64,000 nucleotides of DNA. Origin: Candidatus Nitrospira kreftii (lineage in GTDB: Bacteria; Nitrospirota; Nitrospiria; Nitrospirales; Nitrospiraceae). Positions 115 through 31,996 of this stretch are shown here, piece by piece. The notes beneath the pieces were generated by a model that had not been told where the DNA came from, ran no database searches, and saw only the letters and a list, made by a program, of their open reading frames with translations. The first letter of the stretch is position 1; every line of letters starts with the position of its first letter. A program made the position numbers and the translations under genes. The stretch is taken from NCBI GenBank assembly GCA_014058405.1, contig CP047423.1:372001-436000 (forward strand), written 5' to 3'.

Positions 115-1710
115 ATGATCGCTCTGGTATTGGCCCTTGTAACTCTCCTGCCAATGACCGCACTGGCGGAACCGGTGATTGACTCGCGTGCCGTGCAGGC
201 GCAGTCGACCCGCACCGCTCCACTGACCATCGATGAAGTGCTAGCTCGCATCGAGTTGACGCATCCACTGCTGCAGGCGACCGGAGCCGAGCGAACGAAG
301 GCTCGGGCGAAGATCCTGAAGGCGCTCGCGGCCTGGGAACCGACGTTCCATAACATTTTAGAGGCCGAACGGTATGAAACGTGGAATCTCACGACAGCTC
401 CCGCCCCCGGCTTGTCCTGCGATCCAGCCAACCCCTTATGCGAGCCGCTCCAGCCGCAAAGGTTGATGGCGGGATTTAACGACAGCAAGATCGAGGTCGG
501 GCATCCCTATGGCTTTAAGGTCCATGGCGGGATCCGCCAAGGCTTCGGGGATCGCGGCACGTTAATACTTTCTGCTATCCCGGACATGCAGGGGTTCGAT
601 AGGATGCAGCAGTTCATCTTCGGCGGGTCGATCCAACTGCTGCGCGGCCTCATGATCAACGAAGAGTATGCCGAGTTTCAGCAGGCCGAGCTCGCGGGGC
701 CGCAGGCCGAAGTCAAGGTGGCGCAGAAACGGCAGGATCTCTATCTCGCCGGGGCCGTGCAGTACTGGGATTGGCAGGTCGCCGTCAAGCAGGCCGAGAT
801 TGTGAAGCGAGCCTTGGCCGTGGCCGAAGAACGCGCAGTCCAGGTCGAGGGGCTGGCCAAGGGCGGGAAGGTCGCGCCGCTCGATGTCATTGAGGTCAAC
901 CAAGAGGTGCAGAAGCGGCGCGAGGCCGCGATCGCCGCGCAACGGAAGGTGGAGTACGAGCAGTACAAACTGTCCCTCTTTCTCTGGGAGCAGAACGAGC
1001 CGGTGACGCCGCGGTCGGAATGGGCGCCGGAATTTCAGGGCGAAACGCCGCTCCCGACCAACGACGAAGTCGCGGCCTACAAAGTGGAGGCGAAGGAAGA
1101 TCGGCCGGAAGTGCGGGACCTCTATATCGAAGCCAAGATGAACAATATCGATATCAAACTCGCCAAGAACAAACTGCTTCCAAAGTTGAACCTTGATGGG
1201 GGGCCGGCGGATGCCGCCACAGACTGGATTGTGGGAGTCGGCTACACGATGGGGATTCACTTCGAGGTGCCGTTATTCCAGCGGGAAGGGCGTGGGAAGG
1301 TCATGGGCGCGGAAGTGTTCCAGCAGCAATTGGCGTTGAAACAGCAGTATGCCGAGCAACAAGTCAATCTTGACGTGGACAACTGGCTCTCGGCGATCGT
1401 GCGGGCCAGGGATCGGGTGAAGGTGTCGACGGAAGCGCTGCGCTTGGCCAAGACGTTGGAGGAAGGGGAACGTAAGCGATTCAATATGGGCGCGACCACT
1501 GTCCTCTTTGTGAACCTCCGGGAGCGCAACGTCGTGGAGTCAGCCTACCAGCTGTATCGAGCGCAGGCCGACTACGCGGTGGCGCGTGGAGGCATGTTGT
1601 GGGCGAGAGGCGTGCTGGCAAAGCCCTGGCCGACGGAGTCTTTGGCGAAGTATGGGAATCCGATGACGGCGGCTGGTGTGTACGGGCATCAAAAACCGGG
1701 CCGCGATTAA
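115..1710 (+). CDS. TolC-like outer membrane efflux/secretion channel, paralogue 1
   Basis: This 531-residue protein begins with a signal peptide (hydrophobic segment ending near ALAEP). It has the long amphipathic helices of the TolC/OEP family, with two related halves that each carry a glutamate- and alanine-rich coiled coil. TolC proteins trimerise into an outer-membrane barrel plus a periplasmic tunnel and work with an HlyD-type adaptor and an inner-membrane pump. The ATG at 115 follows an AAGGAG ribosome site and a leader motif (AGGAGCATCC) that recurs before all three paralogues. It is the first of three tandem copies followed by an ABC protein and an HlyD protein, so it probably belongs to a type I secretion-like complex. 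Differences from its paralogues cluster near residues 85-110, 145-165 and 360-380, the likely barrel loops. The family call is firm; the substrate is unknown. Confidence 0.9.
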   Translation: MIALVLALVTLLPMTALAEPVIDSRAVQAQSTRTAPLTIDEVLARIELTHPLLQATGAERTKARAKILKALAAWEPTFHNILEAERYETWNLTTAPAPGLSCDPANPLCEPLQPQRLMAGFNDSKIEVGHPYGFKVHGGIRQGFGDRGTLILSAIPDMQGFDRMQQFIFGGSIQLLRGLMINEEYAEFQQAELAGPQAEVKVAQKRQDLYLAGAVQYWDWQVAVKQAEIVKRALAVAEERAVQVEGLAKGGKVAPLDVIEVNQEVQKRREAAIAAQRKVEYEQYKLSLFLWEQNEPVTPRSEWAPEFQGETPLPTNDEVAAYKVEAKEDRPEVRDLYIEAKMNNIDIKLAKNKLLPKLNLDGGPADAATDWIVGVGYTMGIHFEVPLFQREGRGKVMGAEVFQQQLALKQQYAEQQVNLDVDNWLSAIVRARDRVKVSTEALRLAKTLEEGERKRFNMGATTVLFVNLRERNVVESAYQLYRAQADYAVARGGMLWARGVLAKPWPTESLAKYGNPMTAAGVYGHQKPGRD

Positions 1711-1733
1711 ACCGGCACAAGGAGCATCCTTTA

Positions 1734-3290
1734 ATGGCAGCTCTATTATTCGTCATTCTGATCTTGCTTCCCGTGATGACCATGGCGGGACCTAGTACGG
1801 CCCCTGTGATTGATCACAGCGCGGTCACGTCGCAGTCGACGCGCACCGAACCCCTGACCATCGATGAAGTCCTGGCCAGAATCGAGTTGACGCATCCATT
1901 GCTTCAGGCGACCGGGGTGGAGCGGATGCAGGCCCGGGCGAAAATTCTCAAGGCGCTCGGGGCCTGGGAGCCGAAGTTCAATAACTTTACCGAAGTCGAT
2001 CGGTATCAAAATTGGAATTTCCTGTCCGTCTTGCATGAGCACACGGTGGGCTATAACGACAGCAAGCTCAATGTCGGGCATCCCTGGGGCTTCGAGGTCC
2101 ATGGCGGGATCCGTAACGGCTTTGGGGATCGCCTCTTTCACAATTTTTCTGGCGTCATCCCTGATGTCAACCTCTTCTATGAACAGCAGCAAATGATCTT
2201 CGGCGGAAAGTTCAAGCTGCTGCGCGGCTTTATGATCAACGACGAGTACGCGGAGCTCCAGAAGGCCGAACTCGCAGGGCCGCAGGCGGAGATCGCGGTG
2301 GCGCAGAAACGGCAAGATCTCTATCTGGCCGGGGCGGTGCAGTACTGGGATTGGCAGGTTGCCGTCAAGCAGGCTGAAATTGTGAAGCGAGCCTTGGCCG
2401 TGGCCGAAGACCGGTTGGTTCAGGTCGAAGGGTTGGCGAAGGGCGGGAAGGTCGCGCCGCTCGATGTGATCGAGGTGAACCAAGAGGTGCAGAATCGGCG
2501 CGAGGCGGCGATCGCCGCGCAACGGAAGGTGGAGTATGAGCAGTACAATCTGGCCCTCTTTCTCTGGGAGCACGGTGAGCCGGTGACGCCGCGACCGGAA
2601 TGGGCGCCGGAATTCCAGGGCGAAACACCGCTCCCGACCAAAGAGGAGGTTGCGGGCTACAAGGTAGAGGCGAAGGAAGACCGGCCGGAAGTGCGCAACT
2701 ACTACATCGAAGCCAAGATGAACAACATTGATCTGAAACTGGCTAAGAACTACCTGCTCCCGAAGTTTAATTTTGAAGGGGGACGGATGACAACCCCTGG
2801 AGACTGGGCTGTGGGCGTGGGGTATCGGATGGCCACGCAGTTTGCGATGCCGCTGTTCCAGCGGGAAGGGCGGGGGAAGGTCCTGACGGCGGAGGCGGAG
2901 CAGCAACAATTGGTCTTGAGTCAGCTGTATGCCGAGCAACAGGTCAGTGTTGATGTGGACAACTGGCTCTCGGCGATCGTGCGGGCCCGGGACCGGGTGA
3001 AAGCCGCGTCGGAAGCGCTGCGATTGGCCAAGACACTGGAAGAGGGCGAACGGACCCGCTTCAATTTTGGCGCGACCACCGTGCTGTTTGTCAACCTTCG
3101 TGAGCGCAATGTGGTGGAGTCAGCGTACCAGCTGTATCGGGCGCAGGCCGACTACGCCGTGGCGCGTGGAGGGATGCTGTGGGCCAGGGGCGTGCTGTCG
3201 AAGCCCTGGCCGACGGAATCCTTGGCGAAGTACGGGGATCCGCTGACGGCGGCCGGTCGCTCGGGTCTACCCGTGGCTGGACGTGATTAA
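1734..3290 (+). CDS. TolC-like outer membrane channel, paralogue 2
   Basis: This is a second full-length TolC-family protein of 518 residues. A longer reading frame opens at 1599 inside paralogue 1. The ATG at 1734 is preferred because it is preceded by the same AAGGAGCATCC leader as the other copies and gives a clean signal peptide (MAALLFVILILL). Only 23 bp separate it from the stop of paralogue 1, so the two are probably co-transcribed. The central helices (for example AVQYWDWQVAVKQ and KGGKVAPLDVIEVNQE) are almost identical to paralogue 1, also at the DNA level, which indicates recent duplication or gene conversion. The predicted loop regions are quite different. Function is inferred as the outer-membrane conduit of the downstream ABC/HlyD pair. 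Confidence 0.9.
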   Translation: MAALLFVILILLPVMTMAGPSTAPVIDHSAVTSQSTRTEPLTIDEVLARIELTHPLLQATGVERMQARAKILKALGAWEPKFNNFTEVDRYQNWNFLSVLHEHTVGYNDSKLNVGHPWGFEVHGGIRNGFGDRLFHNFSGVIPDVNLFYEQQQMIFGGKFKLLRGFMINDEYAELQKAELAGPQAEIAVAQKRQDLYLAGAVQYWDWQVAVKQAEIVKRALAVAEDRLVQVEGLAKGGKVAPLDVIEVNQEVQNRREAAIAAQRKVEYEQYNLALFLWEHGEPVTPRPEWAPEFQGETPLPTKEEVAGYKVEAKEDRPEVRNYYIEAKMNNIDLKLAKNYLLPKFNFEGGRMTTPGDWAVGVGYRMATQFAMPLFQREGRGKVLTAEAEQQQLVLSQLYAEQQVSVDVDNWLSAIVRARDRVKAASEALRLAKTLEEGERTRFNFGATTVLFVNLRERNVVESAYQLYRAQADYAVARGGMLWARGVLSKPWPTESLAKYGDPLTAAGRSGLPVAGRD

Positions 3291-3315
3291 TTCAGCAACA
3301 AAGGAGCATCCTTCC

Positions 3316-4887
3316 TTGATCCTTCTATTGTTGATCTCGTTGATGATGGTGCCGGCGATCGTAGCGGCAGAACCCCAGGCCACGGCAAGTGCACCAAGCG
3401 CCGAATCTGTGCGGACCGCTCCCTTGACCATTGAAGAGGTGTTTGCCAGGATTGAATTGACCCATCCGCTGCTGCGGGCCACAGGATTAGAACGGGCGCA
3501 GGCTCGGGCGAAAGTCCTGAAAGCCTTGGGCGCGTGGGAGCCGAAGGTTCGGAACGAGGTCGAGGTCGACCGATATGTAACGTATAACCTGACGAACGTT
3601 TGCGGCATACCGAATGACTTTACGGCCGGCTATAGCGATACCATGCTCAAAGTGGCGCATCCCTGGGGCATCGAGATGTTCGGGGGTATTCGCAATGGTT
3701 TCGGTGATCGCCACACTATCAATTCAGGAACCCGCTGCAGTTTAGTAGCCTTTCCTCAAGACCTCCAGGCATTCTGGCCGCAGCAAATGTTGATCGTCGG
3801 CGGAGCGTTCAATCTCCTGCGGGGCTTCATGGTCAACGACGAGTATGCCGAGTTTCAACAGGCGGAGCTCGCCGGGCCGCAAGCCGAAGTGAAAGTGGCC
3901 CAGAAACGGCAAGATCTCTATCTCGCTGGGGCCATCCAGTATTGGGATTGGCAAGTCGCCGTCAAGCAAGCCGATGTGGTGAAGCGCGCGCTGGCCGTCG
4001 CGGAAGAACGTTATCGCATGGTGGAGGGGAGATCCAAAGCTGGTGCAGTTGCTCCGATCGATGTGGTCGAGGCCCAAGAAGAAGTTCAGCGCCGCCGGGA
4101 GGCAGCCATCGCCGCGCAACGGAAGGTGGAGTATGAGCAGTATAAGCTGGCCCTCTTTCTCTGGAAAGACGGCGAACCTGTGACACCTCGCCCTGAATGG
4201 GCTCCGGAATTTCAGGGGGAAACGCCGTTACCAAGCGAAGAGGACGTCGCGGTCTTTAAGGTGGAAGCCGCGGAGGATCGCCCGGAAGTGCGCGATCTCT
4301 ACATTGAAGCCCGACTGAACAATATCGAAGTGAAACTGGCGAAGAATGGTCTGCTTCCAAAGCTGACCTTTTCAGGTGGGCCGGCGGTGGGCTCTCTCTA
4401 TTGGATTGGCGGGTTCGGCTACAATATGCAACTTCGCTTCAGCATGCCGCTCTTCAATCGAGGCGCCCGCGGGAAGGTCCTTCACGCAGAGGCTGAGCAG
4501 ACGCGGTTGGCGTATAAACAGGCCTACACCGAACGTCAGGTCGAGATTGACGTTGATAACTGGCTCTCGGCGATTGTTCGGGCCCGAGACCGAGTGAAAG
4601 CCGCCACAGAAGGGCTGCGCTTGGCCAAGACGCTGGAAGAAGGTGAACGGGCTCGATTCAATATGGGAGCGACGAGTGTGCTCTTTGTCAACCTGCGCGA
4701 GCGCGCTGTCGTTGAAGCGGCCTATGAACTCTACCGTGCCCAGGCCGACTATGCAGTGGCCCGAGGAGGAATGTTGTGGGCCAGAGGAGCGTTATCGAAG
4801 CCACTCGCGGAGAACATACTCGCCAAGTATGGTGATCCGGTGGCTGCGGCCGGGATCTCCGGTCGTAAGCTCCAAGGGCGTGATTAG
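3316..4887 (+). CDS. TolC-like outer membrane channel, paralogue 3
   Basis: This is the third tandem TolC-family protein, 523 residues if translation starts at the TTG at 3316. That TTG follows AAAGGAGCATCC, the shared leader of this gene family, and yields a typical signal peptide. A GTG at 3283 in the same frame overlaps the previous gene and is less likely. This copy is the most divergent of the three. Its predicted exposed segments contain two cysteines (a VCGIP stretch and a TRCSL stretch) that are absent from paralogue 2. The helical tunnel segments remain close to the other copies. It lies 128 bp upstream of the ABC gene. Confidence 0.88.
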   Translation: MILLLLISLMMVPAIVAAEPQATASAPSAESVRTAPLTIEEVFARIELTHPLLRATGLERAQARAKVLKALGAWEPKVRNEVEVDRYVTYNLTNVCGIPNDFTAGYSDTMLKVAHPWGIEMFGGIRNGFGDRHTINSGTRCSLVAFPQDLQAFWPQQMLIVGGAFNLLRGFMVNDEYAEFQQAELAGPQAEVKVAQKRQDLYLAGAIQYWDWQVAVKQADVVKRALAVAEERYRMVEGRSKAGAVAPIDVVEAQEEVQRRREAAIAAQRKVEYEQYKLALFLWKDGEPVTPRPEWAPEFQGETPLPSEEDVAVFKVEAAEDRPEVRDLYIEARLNNIEVKLAKNGLLPKLTFSGGPAVGSLYWIGGFGYNMQLRFSMPLFNRGARGKVLHAEAEQTRLAYKQAYTERQVEIDVDNWLSAIVRARDRVKAATEGLRLAKTLEEGERARFNMGATSVLFVNLRERAVVEAAYELYRAQADYAVARGGMLWARGALSKPLAENILAKYGDPVAAAGISGRKLQGRD

Positions 4888-5015: not shown

Positions 5016-6692
5016 ATGAAAGAACCTCAGGGCAACCGTTATCCGGGCCTGTTTGAAGCGTTGATGAAGCAGCTATCCGTGGCTATGAAGGCTGAGAAAA
5101 GGATCATGTACTTGATCTTTTCCTATGCCTTGGCAGTCGCGTTCTTTTCCCTGATCATTCCCTTGACCGTACAGGAGTTGGTCAGCACCTTCTCCTATGC
5201 GGTTCAGCCGGTCATGATCTGGACATTGACTGCGGTCATGCTGACGGTGTTGTTGTTCGTCGGCCTGTTCAAGACGTTCCACTTTTACGCGATCGATGTC
5301 ATACAACGTCGCGTCTTCGCCAGAATCACAGTGGCGATGGTTGAGCAGCTTCCTCGGAATCGATTCAAGGCCTCGCAAACCCACATTGCGAACTACTTCA
5401 TGGAAACGGTCTTTATGCAACGGGCGTTGTCCACGCTGTTGTTCGATTTGATCAATGTGGTCGTGGGCGGGACTGTCGGTATGCTCTTGCTGATGGTGTA
5501 CCATCCGTATTTTCTCATGTTCAACTTGCTCCTCATGGCGGGGTTTGCAATCACGTTCTTCGTGCTCTCTCGCGGCGCGCTGAAGACGACGCTCGACATG
5601 TCACACGCAAAGTACGATACCTTCCGATGGGTTCAGGAGGTTGCCCAGAATTCCTTGCAATTTAAAGCCACCGACAGCCGTTCGTATATCCTGCAGAAGA
5701 CGAACGATCTCGTGAATCATTATGTGGACGCTCGAAAGGCACGGTTTCGTGTCCTCGTGCGTCAGTATGTCGGTTCTGTGGGTGGACAAGCGTTCGCACA
5801 GGCAGGCGCGCTTGGTATGGCAGCCTATCTCATGTCCATTGGTCAGTTGACCCTCGGTCAGTTAGTTGCTGTCCAAGCAGTGGTCGGTGCGCTGGTTATT
5901 AACTTTGACACGCTCATCAAGAACATGGGGTTCGTGTACTACTTCTTCACAGCCCTCACTCACCTTGATACGGTCTTTCAGCAAGAGCAGGATTATGTTT
6001 CGGTTGAATCACCGGTGGGAATGCCGAAGCACCTAACCCAGGGTGTTCGCGTTACCTGCAAAGGTGTCAGCCTAATTCACGGTGGAGCCTCCATCTTTGA
6101 TGGTTTCAACTTGGATGTGGCGCCCGGAGAGAAGCTTGGTATCTATGCTAAAACTACGGGGGCCAAAACCGCGCTGGCCAGGGTCTTGGGAGGTCTCGAG
6201 ACACCGACCAACGGAGTTGTCCAGTACAACGGCGTCGATCTACGGTACATGGATCCCAATGGTCTCAACCAAGTCCGTAGCGTCATGCTCGATTCTCAAT
6301 TGACGTTGGTCCAGGGAACGATCGAAGAAAACATCGTCATGGGACGTTCCTATGTGACCTATGACGACCTCAACTGGGCCCTCCGTTTCACTGAACTGGA
6401 AGAGGATATCGATGCCTTGCCACGCGGGGTAAAGTCAGATGTTTCCTCACTTGGAGAATCTCTTTCACCGACGCATATCGTGCAAATCTTGTTGGCCCGC
6501 GCTATTCTGGGCCATCCGCAAGTGCTGATATTCGATGGGCTAATTCACGCGCTCGAGCCATCGTTGAGAGAAAGGGTGTTGCGTCGCCTATGCTCTAAAG
6601 ACGAAGCATGGTCGGTGATTTTTGTCTCAACGGATCCAAACCTGACGGATCATGCAGATCGTCGTATTATGCTACACCATGCTCATGCATAA
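5016..6692 (+). CDS. ABC half-transporter with a degenerate, probably inactive ATPase domain
   Basis: This 558-residue protein has the layout of an ABC exporter half-molecule: about six membrane segments (residues roughly 30-315) and a C-terminal nucleotide-binding domain (about 340-558). The fold-level landmarks are visible but the catalytic motifs are not. The Walker A position reads AKTTGAKT (378-385), so all three P-loop glycines are displaced while Lys384 remains. The signature LSGGQ is LSPTH (483-487). The Walker B glutamate is Gly508 (LIFDG). The switch histidine is replaced in VSTDP (537-541), and the Q-loop glutamine is not in register. No second ABC gene lies in the cluster. It sits between three TolC genes and an HlyD gene, so it is probably the inner-membrane component of a secretion complex, driven by another ATPase or not ATP-driven. 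The start ATG has a GGGGG-type upstream site. Confidence 0.85.
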   Translation: MKEPQGNRYPGLFEALMKQLSVAMKAEKRIMYLIFSYALAVAFFSLIIPLTVQELVSTFSYAVQPVMIWTLTAVMLTVLLFVGLFKTFHFYAIDVIQRRVFARITVAMVEQLPRNRFKASQTHIANYFMETVFMQRALSTLLFDLINVVVGGTVGMLLLMVYHPYFLMFNLLLMAGFAITFFVLSRGALKTTLDMSHAKYDTFRWVQEVAQNSLQFKATDSRSYILQKTNDLVNHYVDARKARFRVLVRQYVGSVGGQAFAQAGALGMAAYLMSIGQLTLGQLVAVQAVVGALVINFDTLIKNMGFVYYFFTALTHLDTVFQQEQDYVSVESPVGMPKHLTQGVRVTCKGVSLIHGGASIFDGFNLDVAPGEKLGIYAKTTGAKTALARVLGGLETPTNGVVQYNGVDLRYMDPNGLNQVRSVMLDSQLTLVQGTIEENIVMGRSYVTYDDLNWALRFTELEEDIDALPRGVKSDVSSLGESLSPTHIVQILLARAILGHPQVLIFDGLIHALEPSLRERVLRRLCSKDEAWSVIFVSTDPNLTDHADRRIMLHHAHA

Positions 6693-6743: not shown

Positions 6744-8189
6744 ATGGCTAGCCTAGGTGGTGGTCTCGAAAGAAGTGGAGAACGTGCGCTCGTCAGGAAG
6801 GGTGTTGGTTTGGAAGCGATCACGATGGAACAGGGATCAGCCTTGTCAACGTTGCCATGCTGGGAGGCCGTGAAACTTTCCGGCGGGATGTTCACAGCAT
6901 CGCGAGCCATCCTCACGATCCTTCTCGTGTTTTTGATCATTCTTGAGTTCGTGCCCTGGACACAGACGATCAGCGCACAGGGTCAAGTCTCGGCCTATAC
7001 TCCCTATGATCGTCCGCAACACATCGAATCTCGGATTACAGGCCGAGTCAAGGCATGGCATATCTTTGAAGGTGTCAAGGTTAAGAAGGGGGAGCTCGTC
7101 GGTGAGCTCGAGGACTATGACCCAACCTATATGGCACCTGAGATCCTTCCGTTGTTTGAACAACGCCGAGATGCGTTAGAAAAAACTCGCCAAGCAGCGT
7201 TAGGAAGAGCCGATCAGCTCACCAAACGGATAGGCGAGATGAAGAAACTGGTCCAGGCCGCGGTCCCCTCGGCGGAAGCCCGGGTGGTCGAGGCCGATAA
7301 CCGCGTGCGCGAGGCCCAGCAAAAGGTCGAAGCGGCCAAGATTGACGTCGATACAGCGCAACTCAACGTCGATCGACATCGGCAACTTGTGAGAGATGGA
7401 CTTGTCTCACAACGAGAACTCGAATTGACGATCCAAACTGAAATCGGGAGCAAAGCAGCTCTGCAAGCAGCTCAGGCCAACCTTCTGGCGGCAGAACAGA
7501 GCAGATCGGCCCTGAACTTCGGTCGCGATCAGATTACGGCCGATGTGAATCAGCAACTCATCGATGCCATGGCGTCACGTGACAATGCGGTGGCTGAAGC
7601 TGCCAAGGCTACCGAACAGCTTGCAGAGATGTCCTACAAGCAACAAGGTGTCCAACAGCGTATTGAAGCGGCCAAACTCTATGCGCCCATGGATGGTACC
7701 GTCGTTAAAATGGCAAGAGTTGGAATTAACGAAACGGTCAAGCAAGGGGATGATCTGGTTACCATTTCACCCTTAGCAAGCGATCCGGCTATCGAAATGG
7801 TGGCCGAAGGGTTGGATGCTCCCCTTTTGAGTCCTGGACGGAAAGTCAAGATCCTGTTCTTCGGAGTGCCGGCTATTCCATTACCGGCCTGGCCAGGGCT
7901 CATGGCTGGTACTCGGTCGGGTGTGATCAAGGTGGTCGATCAGATCGACGATGGAAAAGGGAATTACCGATTCTGGGTCGTGCCTGACCCGGACGATCCT
8001 CAACCCTGGCCGGAGCAAGCTCAGGTGAGGCAAGGAACCAGAGTATTAGGGTGGGTTATCCTCAATCGTGTCCCACTCTGGTATGAGTTGTGGCGGCGTT
8101 TTAACTTCTTCCCGCCGGACTATATGGAGCGTGAACCAAGCATCTTTGAGATGTTTGCTCCAAGGTCAGCTGGACAAGGCATCAAGTAG
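6744..8189 (+). CDS. HlyD-family membrane fusion (adaptor) protein
   Basis: This is a 481-residue periplasmic adaptor. A single membrane helix lies at about residues 55-72. It is followed by a biotinyl-lipoyl-like half (around ESRITGRVKAWHIFEGVKVKKG), a long alpha-helical hairpin (about 150-310, rich in Ala, Glu and Gln), and a second lipoyl half with the typical APMDGTV turn. The last ~60 residues (VLGWVILNRVPLWYELWRR) form a hydrophobic tail. Proteins of this family bridge an inner-membrane ABC protein and a TolC channel. The gene follows the ABC gene by 51 bp and has GGAGG just before its ATG. Genes 115-8189 therefore form one five-gene unit, closed by hairpins downstream. Confidence 0.9.
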   Translation: MASLGGGLERSGERALVRKGVGLEAITMEQGSALSTLPCWEAVKLSGGMFTASRAILTILLVFLIILEFVPWTQTISAQGQVSAYTPYDRPQHIESRITGRVKAWHIFEGVKVKKGELVGELEDYDPTYMAPEILPLFEQRRDALEKTRQAALGRADQLTKRIGEMKKLVQAAVPSAEARVVEADNRVREAQQKVEAAKIDVDTAQLNVDRHRQLVRDGLVSQRELELTIQTEIGSKAALQAAQANLLAAEQSRSALNFGRDQITADVNQQLIDAMASRDNAVAEAAKATEQLAEMSYKQQGVQQRIEAAKLYAPMDGTVVKMARVGINETVKQGDDLVTISPLASDPAIEMVAEGLDAPLLSPGRKVKILFFGVPAIPLPAWPGLMAGTRSGVIKVVDQIDDGKGNYRFWVVPDPDDPQPWPEQAQVRQGTRVLGWVILNRVPLWYELWRRFNFFPPDYMEREPSIFEMFAPRSAGQGIK

Positions 8190-30174: not shown

Positions 30175-31905
30175 TCAGGCAGTCGGTTCGTTTAGACGGA
30201 TGGTATAAAGGTAATGGTACAGACCCTGCCGCTCCAGCAATTGCACGTGGGTGCCTTCCTCAACAAGTTGTCCTTTGTCGAGAACCAAAATGCGGTCGGC
30301 ACGCTGAATCGTCGACAGTCGGTGGGCGACAACGAAGGTGGTCCGTCCTTCCATGAGACGTTGGAGTGCTTCTTGGACCAGGCGCTCTGAATCGGTATCG
30401 AGCGATGATGTCGCTTCGTCGAGTAATAGAATGCGAGGATCTTTCAGGATCGCTCGAGCGATCGCGATTCGTTGACGCTGTCCACCGGACAAGTTGACTC
30501 CTTTTTCACCGACCACGGTCTGGTACCCGTCTGGTAAGGTTGTGATGAAGTCGTGCGCATGAGCGGCTTTACTGGCTTCCCATACAGTCGCTTCGTCCGC
30601 GTCCATCTTTCCGTAACGAATATTATCGAGGATTGTGCCTCCGAACAGGATAGTTTCCTGCGGGACCAGCGCGATCTGTCGGTACCAACTCTCAAGCTTC
30701 ACGTCTCGGAAGTCTCTTTCGTCAATGGTGAGGCGACCCGCTATTGGATCATAGAACCGGTGCAGAAGATTGATCACCGTAGTTTTGCCGGCGCCCGTTG
30801 GTCCGACCAACGCAACGAGTTCGCCGGGCTTGGCTTCAAAGGAGAGGTTGGACAATACCGGGCGGCGAGGATCATAGCCAAACGTGACGTTCTCCATCCG
30901 CACATGACCCTCGACTGTAACTAGTGCCTGTGTATCTGGTCGATCGTGAATGTCCGGCTGCGCATCAAGTATCTCGAAGACACGTTGCGTAGCTCCTTGG
31001 GCCTCCTTGATCTGCGTAAAGACGCGCGCGGCTGCGCTGAAGGGGCCGATCAAAATGCCCGCGAACAAGACGAACGCGAATAGATCGCCCGGCGTCACGG
31101 TGCCGTCGATCACCTGCCGGCCTCCGTACCACAGTACGGCGGTCGCCGACGAAAATGTCATGAGGCTGATCACTGGGATAAAGACGGCCATGATACCTGC
31201 TCGGCTGAGTGTGAGACCGAGAGTCTGATCGACCTGAGCGGCGAATCGTTCTGTTTCACGTGGTGCCTGGACGAACGATTTGACGATGCGAATACCAGAA
31301 ATCACCTCTTCTGCCAGCGTACTGAGCGTGGCGGTATGGTCTTGAATCGACGTTGAAAGCGATTTCAACCTACGTCCAAACAGCTTTGAGACCACAACCA
31401 GTAATGGAAGCAGAATCAGGATAAGGAGACAGAGTTGCCAATTCATAAGGAGCAGGAACGTAATGCCTCCCACGAATGTCACCAGTTGCTTCACTGTGTC
31501 AATGGGGGTTTCTGTGACGAGAGATTGAATGACCGTCACATCGGACATCAATCGGGACAGCAATTCGCCCGTGCGTCGGCGAGAAAAAAAACTGATCGTC
31601 AACGTTTGCAGGTGGGCGAAGAGATGTTTGCGGAAATCGGCGATGACGTTCTGAGAAACCCAGGCTGTCAGATAACTGTGACCCATGGAGCATAGTCCTT
31701 GGAGAACGACGAGCCCCAAGAACATACCGATCAACCGGGTCATGTGTTCGGCATCATGCTGGACCGTCACAATATCCCAGAGGGTGCCGGCCAGTCTGAC
31801 TAACGCAAGATTGATGGCTGCCACTCCTGACACCAGGAGGCCCGCAAGCATCAGGCGCCACAGGTACGGTCGTACATATGGAAGGAATCGCTTGAAGATC
31901 AACAT
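30175..31905 (-). CDS. MsbA-like ABC exporter
   Basis: This is a half-transporter of 576 residues with six N-terminal membrane helices and a complete ATPase domain: GPTGAGKTT (Walker A), LSGGQRQR (signature), LLLDEATSSLD (Walker B with catalytic Glu) and VAHR (switch His). It is of the lipid/multidrug exporter class that works as a homodimer. It provides a useful contrast with the degenerate ABC protein at 5016. It is separated by about 157 bp from the response regulator and is probably transcribed alone. The substrate is unknown; lipid A or drug are the usual guesses. Confidence 0.9.
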   Translation of the reverse strand: MLIFKRFLPYVRPYLWRLMLAGLLVSGVAAINLALVRLAGTLWDIVTVQHDAEHMTRLIGMFLGLVVLQGLCSMGHSYLTAWVSQNVIADFRKHLFAHLQTLTISFFSRRRTGELLSRLMSDVTVIQSLVTETPIDTVKQLVTFVGGITFLLLMNWQLCLLILILLPLLVVVSKLFGRRLKSLSTSIQDHTATLSTLAEEVISGIRIVKSFVQAPRETERFAAQVDQTLGLTLSRAGIMAVFIPVISLMTFSSATAVLWYGGRQVIDGTVTPGDLFAFVLFAGILIGPFSAAARVFTQIKEAQGATQRVFEILDAQPDIHDRPDTQALVTVEGHVRMENVTFGYDPRRPVLSNLSFEAKPGELVALVGPTGAGKTTVINLLHRFYDPIAGRLTIDERDFRDVKLESWYRQIALVPQETILFGGTILDNIRYGKMDADEATVWEASKAAHAHDFITTLPDGYQTVVGEKGVNLSGGQRQRIAIARAILKDPRILLLDEATSSLDTDSERLVQEALQRLMEGRTTFVVAHRLSTIQRADRILVLDKGQLVEEGTHVQLLERQGLYHYLYTIRLNEPTA

Positions 31906-31996
31906 GAGTGCTCAAACGGTCATATCGACCATGAAATGGTGCTGACCCATGATTCTATTTGGAGATACTAGATTGACGGGAGGCGAGAAGAAGGGG

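Follow-up and report, generated by a model that had tools for sequence, protein, structure and literature searches.

An ABC-exporter family of Nitrospirota and Bacteroidota, associated with HlyD and TolC, that may have repeatedly given up ATP

ATP hydrolysis is what defines an ABC exporter. In type I secretion an exporter of the LssB/HlyB kind is accompanied by HlyD and TolC (HlyB-HlyD-TolC). Heterodimeric exporters (TmrAB, TM287/288, TAP, CFTR) have degenerate Walker B and signature motifs and retain one intact composite site per dimer. Tripartite pumps powered by RND or MFS proteins join an adaptor and TolC to an inner-membrane pump that is not an ATPase (PMC8277102). SbmA has an ABC-exporter membrane domain without a nucleotide-binding domain (NBD) and is proton-coupled; with BacA it forms the SLiPT family, derived from full ABC transporters through NBD loss, and transporters of the SbmA type have lost the coupling helices (PMC13316013). 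SbmA/BacA is a peptide importer with extra TM0 helices and a glutamate ladder, and has no HlyD or TolC.

Here we analyse an operon of Candidatus Nitrospira kreftii at the start of a window of 64,000 nucleotides (the whole stretch of DNA analysed). ABC, HlyD and TolC genes stand together in it, the same trio as in type I secretion, but the residues of the 558-aa ABC protein do not appear to allow ATP-energised transport. A search of the open-access literature yielded no published description of a TolC/HlyD system that is ATPase-dead or NBD-less. We considered the SecA_DEAD/HlyD loci of Nitrospirae (PMC4452313) as the same system and set them aside, there being no ABC homologue there.

A degenerate half-transporter in a secretion operon

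Three tandem TolC-family genes lie upstream of the ABC gene and an HlyD-family gene lies downstream. The features are as follows, with positions in the window.

115..1710, + strand: TolC-family outer-membrane channel, copy 1 (profile matches, conserved neighbourhood)
1734..3290, + strand: TolC-family outer-membrane channel, copy 2 (conserved neighbourhood; the ORF as listed begins at 1599, but a signal-like sequence points to 1734 as the probable start)
3283..4887, + strand: TolC-family outer-membrane channel, copy 3 (profile matches, conserved neighbourhood)
5016..6692, + strand: ABC-exporter half-transporter with predicted dead ATPase (P0001, 558 aa; ORF, alignment, Pfam, AlphaFold2)
5097..5981, + strand: transmembrane domain, residues 28-322, with family-specific residues P49, Q53, N126, F128, D144, Y162-H163, S196, Y200, Y236, R240 and G281-Q282
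6048..6677, + strand: predicted dead NBD, residues 345-554, under purifying selection (dN/dS)
6147..6170, + strand: degenerate Walker A, AKTTGAKT, residues 378-385 (alignment)
6291..6299, + strand: shifted Q-loop, D426-S427-Q428 (alignment)
6462..6476, + strand: degenerate signature, LSPTH, residues 483-487 (alignment)
6522..6539, + strand: Walker B, VLIFDG, with Gly508 replacing the catalytic Glu (alignment)
6630..6632, + strand: H-loop position, with Thr539 instead of His (alignment)
6744..8189, + strand: HlyD-family periplasmic adaptor, 481 aa (Pfam HlyD_3, NCBIfam type_I_hlyD), which accompanies the ABC gene in Nitrospira

The tandem TolC triplet (115-4887) is kept in the Nitrospira clade of the window, and other clades have a single TolC gene.

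The initial annotation, made from the sequence alone, described a half-transporter whose ATPase motifs were nearly all lost, and its motif calls hold in our alignment against six ordinary ABC exporters encoded in this genome; such motif columns are alignment-dependent, the Q-loop being the least reliable. All three Walker A glycines are substituted (A378, T381, A383), with K384 and T385 kept. LSGGQ has become LSPTH, Walker B reads D507-G508, T539 takes the place of the switch His, and the Q-loop is indeed out of register, with Q428 off by one residue and S427/D426 in the canonical place. The A-loop, absent from that annotation, has no aromatic residue (VSLIHGG). Of the canonical sites, only Lys and Thr of Walker A and Asp of Walker B (D507) are unaltered. 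The gene is also, as had been noted, the sole ABC gene of its cluster, an ordinary, intact half-exporter lying ~23 kb away near 30178-31911 (- strand). A homodimer had been expected to be inactive as an ATPase, and the loss of motifs supports this well: judged from its sequence, it would not possess even one complete ATP hydrolysis site per dimer, whereas heterodimeric exporters keep one intact composite site. We consider it likely that the 558-aa protein hydrolyses no ATP.

The fold itself is preserved. The AlphaFold2 monomer (pLDDT 78.9) is a complete ABC exporter of type IV, with a six-helix membrane domain and an NBD, and its nearest solved structures by Foldseek are TmrAB, a heterodimeric exporter and the closest fold, HlyB-HlyD (TM-score 0.85 to HlyB, 8dck), PCAT1 and also PrtD. 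Pfam gives an ABC_tran match of 35.5 bits, with ABC_membrane below threshold. The best NCBIfam relatives are bacteriocin and type I secretion exporters, although the protein falls far under every curated cut-off (113 vs 853 bits for the best). It differs from type I secretion exporters further in lacking the catalytic Glu, the switch His and the signature motif, as well as any N-terminal peptidase-like domain, and no substrate gene is recognised in the window operon. Across the Nitrospira loci no further gene that might encode a secreted substrate recurs consistently within or next to the trio; substrates can be unlinked.

Selection on the degenerate domain and stages of its loss

The same substitutions, which the initial annotation had proposed to seek in other genomes, recur across Nitrospira, where the gene is near-ubiquitous and its frame open throughout. 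Among the 88 aligned Nitrospirota members with an NBD, all dead by motif, none keeps the catalytic Glu and none the switch His. The Glu is replaced by Gly in 87 of them, and the one left over (L190) is a copy with a broken frame, its NBD encoded in another reading frame. The Walker A Lys has become Arg in about one fifth of Nitrospirota members. The initial annotation had named as refuting evidence any close homologue that sits in this operon and has its motifs intact; such homologues were looked for, and none occurs in Nitrospirota; only distant Bacteroidota members are intact. Tandem second copies (L082, L083, L100, L258, L260, L263) are also dead, as is the second, and only other, family member of this 4.13 Mb genome (C1:560511-562175; L008, L273), which is 55% identical to the window protein. 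At that second copy HlyD is on the opposite strand, TolC is nearby, and the Walker A Lys is among those changed to Arg.

By the Nei-Gojobori method, 263 pairs of moderate dS give median dN/dS values of 0.053 (NBD) and 0.091 (membrane domain), which indicates strong purifying selection on the NBD. Segments of the former ATP site vary slightly less than the remainder of the NBD (mean entropy 0.61 vs 0.81, p = 0.036). The dead motifs together with this purifying selection suggest that the NBD is dead as an ATPase yet selected for something. A pseudogene or a sequencing error was also considered for the 558-aa gene, and both were rejected on the recurrence of the same residues across Nitrospira and the low dN/dS.

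In evenly drawn genome samples, a family profile search with a threshold of E <= 1e-60 found the family in 77 of 296 Nitrospirota genomes and 97 of 395 Bacteroidota genomes. The score gap that separates it from ordinary exporters is wide (~710 bits vs <=136 bits in four genomes), and a membrane-domain signature common to its dead, NBD-less and intact members is mostly absent from ordinary exporters. HlyD and TolC adjoin the family gene in nearly all loci with enough flank in both phyla; conversely, in five of six genomes tested that lack the ABC gene, the HlyD of the family is absent too. The sampled Bacteroidota members include 21 that retain the Walker A Lys, the Walker B D-E and the His, and 78 in which the Walker A Lys is kept and at least one of the Walker B D-E and the His is gone; most Bacteroidota members retain the full Walker A despite the loss of other motifs. 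The family is a series, from an intact NBD in some Bacteroidota through Walker A only to the fully dead NBD of Nitrospirota and no NBD at all. Many Bacteroidota members (L105-L107, L129, L191 and others) carry an extra N-terminal ~150-250 aa, with no Pfam match in the two tested (L105, L107).

Forms that consist of the membrane domain only, 334-365 aa long, were found in 21 genomes, 18 of Bacteroidota and three of Nitrospirota. Fifteen of these belong to one Bacteroidota family (targeted search; 61-100% identity, 334-365 aa); three other Bacteroidota came from the profile search and the three Nitrospirota from a targeted search. Eight such genes, of 334-360 aa, occur among the sampled loci in HlyD/TolC operons, and HlyD and/or TolC stands beside the NBD-less gene at every locus read. 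Twelve loci of the Bacteroidota family were read across the junction, and in each of them the frame of the membrane domain touches or overlaps that of HlyD and leaves no space for an NBD. A split NBD gene was considered and was found neither at the loci nor in the nine NBD-less genomes searched. These nine genomes yielded no family-type NBD elsewhere: the best NBD matches, 124-138 bits, were in ordinary full-length exporters, vs 210-311 bits for fused family NBDs. A model of an NBD-less member retains the ABC-exporter membrane fold (monomer, pLDDT 83.1), and NBD-less members keep intracellular loops of normal length. The membrane-domain tree, a quick search with one support measure, has at least two independent NBD losses. 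An ABC ATPase gene past the 3' end of one operon (L180) looks unrelated.

Candidate energy sources

The existence of relatives without an NBD, together with the dead but selected NBD of the window protein, makes ATP hydrolysis by this protein unlikely as the drive, and ATP-independent operation is by inference well supported. We propose that the 558-aa protein would be the inner-membrane subunit of a tripartite exporter with HlyD and TolC. Its ancestor would be an ABC exporter like those of type I secretion, driven by ATP, and the use of ATP would since have been given up. In Nitrospira the dead NBD may have kept a structural role, probably as a platform for dimerisation or a clamp of the cytoplasmic gate, and it would then have been dropped altogether in some relatives. 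As a whole, a tripartite-exporter subunit that no longer uses ATP, with its dead NBD structural, is our best explanation, with a probability of roughly 0.5. At comparable, near-even odds, the family in its two phyla has repeatedly given up ATP to become a secondary transporter or a gated pore, the NBD being silenced and then lost.

The initial annotation had offered an unlinked partner or a channel or scaffold; a secondary transporter driven by an ion gradient, for which SbmA/BacA may serve as precedent, was missing from it. Of the mechanisms, secondary transport appeals most, since in SbmA this fold is seen to couple to protons after NBD loss (PMC13316013), and by this analogy an ion gradient may be the drive here; we give ion coupling slightly under an even chance. 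The likeness is to an ABC-exporter membrane domain without an NBD, matched by the distant relatives, whereas the window protein keeps its dead NBD. The family also differs from SbmA/BacA in that its intracellular coupling loops are of normal length even without the NBD, and the 50 best structural matches to the NBD-less model contain no SbmA entry. From RND- and MFS-driven pumps the window system differs in that its inner-membrane part has the ABC-exporter fold. Comparison of membrane-domain conservation found no glutamate ladder specific to dead or NBD-less members. The membrane charges D144, H163 and Glu/Gln287 are family-wide and found also in members with intact NBDs, as are the conserved acidic positions 94, 144 and 298 (with Glu or Gln at 287); part of Nitrospirota, the window protein included, has Gln for Glu at 287. 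E54 and K/R86 alone look specific to the Nitrospirota clade.

If instead the dimer merely joined HlyD to TolC, as a passive gated channel or scaffold, it would open a path without pumping, and direction would come from the substrate gradient or from folding outside. Loss of the ATPase while the operon was retained fits such a part, as does conservation of the dead NBD, which would be expected of a structural clamp; yet long purifying selection on polar residues of the membrane helices suggests more than a scaffold, and an ungated path would be expected to leak. We regard this as rather unlikely, if the strongest of the alternatives. Somewhat less likely again is ATP supplied from elsewhere, by an unlinked intact half-transporter in a heterodimer or by a shared NBD acting in trans. 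Exporter heterodimers in which a single site is degenerate occur commonly (PMC7756269), coupling-loop length is retained in NBD-less members, and every genome searched has ordinary exporters. Nonetheless, neither the window operon nor this genome's family members include an intact partner, the tandem pairs of other Nitrospirota are dead in both copies, the nine NBD-less genomes have no family-type NBD, and ordinary exporters lack the membrane-domain signature of the family; the suggestion of an unlinked partner is thus disfavoured.

ATP or another ligand might also be bound without hydrolysis and gate the pore, as at the degenerate sites of heterodimeric exporters, and here the retention of K384, T385 and D507 and the full Walker A of most Bacteroidota members that lost other motifs can be cited. 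The idea is improbable given that the window protein has lost the A-loop aromatic as well as every glycine of Walker A, that the Walker A Lys of about a fifth of Nitrospirota members has become Arg, and that some members have no NBD. A decaying, functionless relic has only the motif loss in its favour and is contradicted by dN/dS of 0.05-0.09, the genus-wide open frame, the conserved operon and the near-ubiquity in Nitrospira; we give it hardly any weight.

Across this widespread operon family the ATP engine ranges from intact through partly broken and fully dead to absent, yet the other components persist. Should the family have given up ATP as proposed, the ABC fold would have passed from primary to secondary transport by a second, independent route, most of whose stages survive today, and the natural intermediates make the conversion directly testable. 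Nearly every Nitrospira examined carries the system, and these bacteria are key nitrifiers of soil and water treatment. Caution is advisable against annotating such genes as ATP-driven type I secretion.

Neighbouring genes and isolated members

A gene for a LysR-type regulator lies just ahead of the window and diverges from TolC copy 1 (genome C1 371073-371972; L304 6074-6973, - strand). It scores 228.5 bits against the NCBIfam NhaR cut-off of 219, and the proximity of an NhaR-like gene hints weakly at ions. The genes that come next are purE/purK-like, probably unrelated. In a 2.0 Mb Nitrospira genome (G557) an N-terminally short HlyD of this family stands beside purE without adjoining ABC or TolC genes (L303 7253-8602).

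Seven Nitrospirota loci (L261, L262, L265, L267, L268, L271, L272) have orphan dead members with no HlyD or TolC within 7 kb. In one Nitrospira clade a gene with a 4HB_MCP-type sensory domain follows the ABC gene (L077 9583-10449, with relatives in L078-L083, L100, L102 and L103). TetR-family regulators adjoin Bacteroidota operons (L193 7159-7905, L108 1523-2197, L180 6930-7607). NBD-less operons of Nitrospirota (L178 1000-7210, L179 5504-11728) lie directly upstream of DabB-like and DabA genes, which belong to an inorganic carbon transporter; the DabA identity was confirmed by Pfam in L178.
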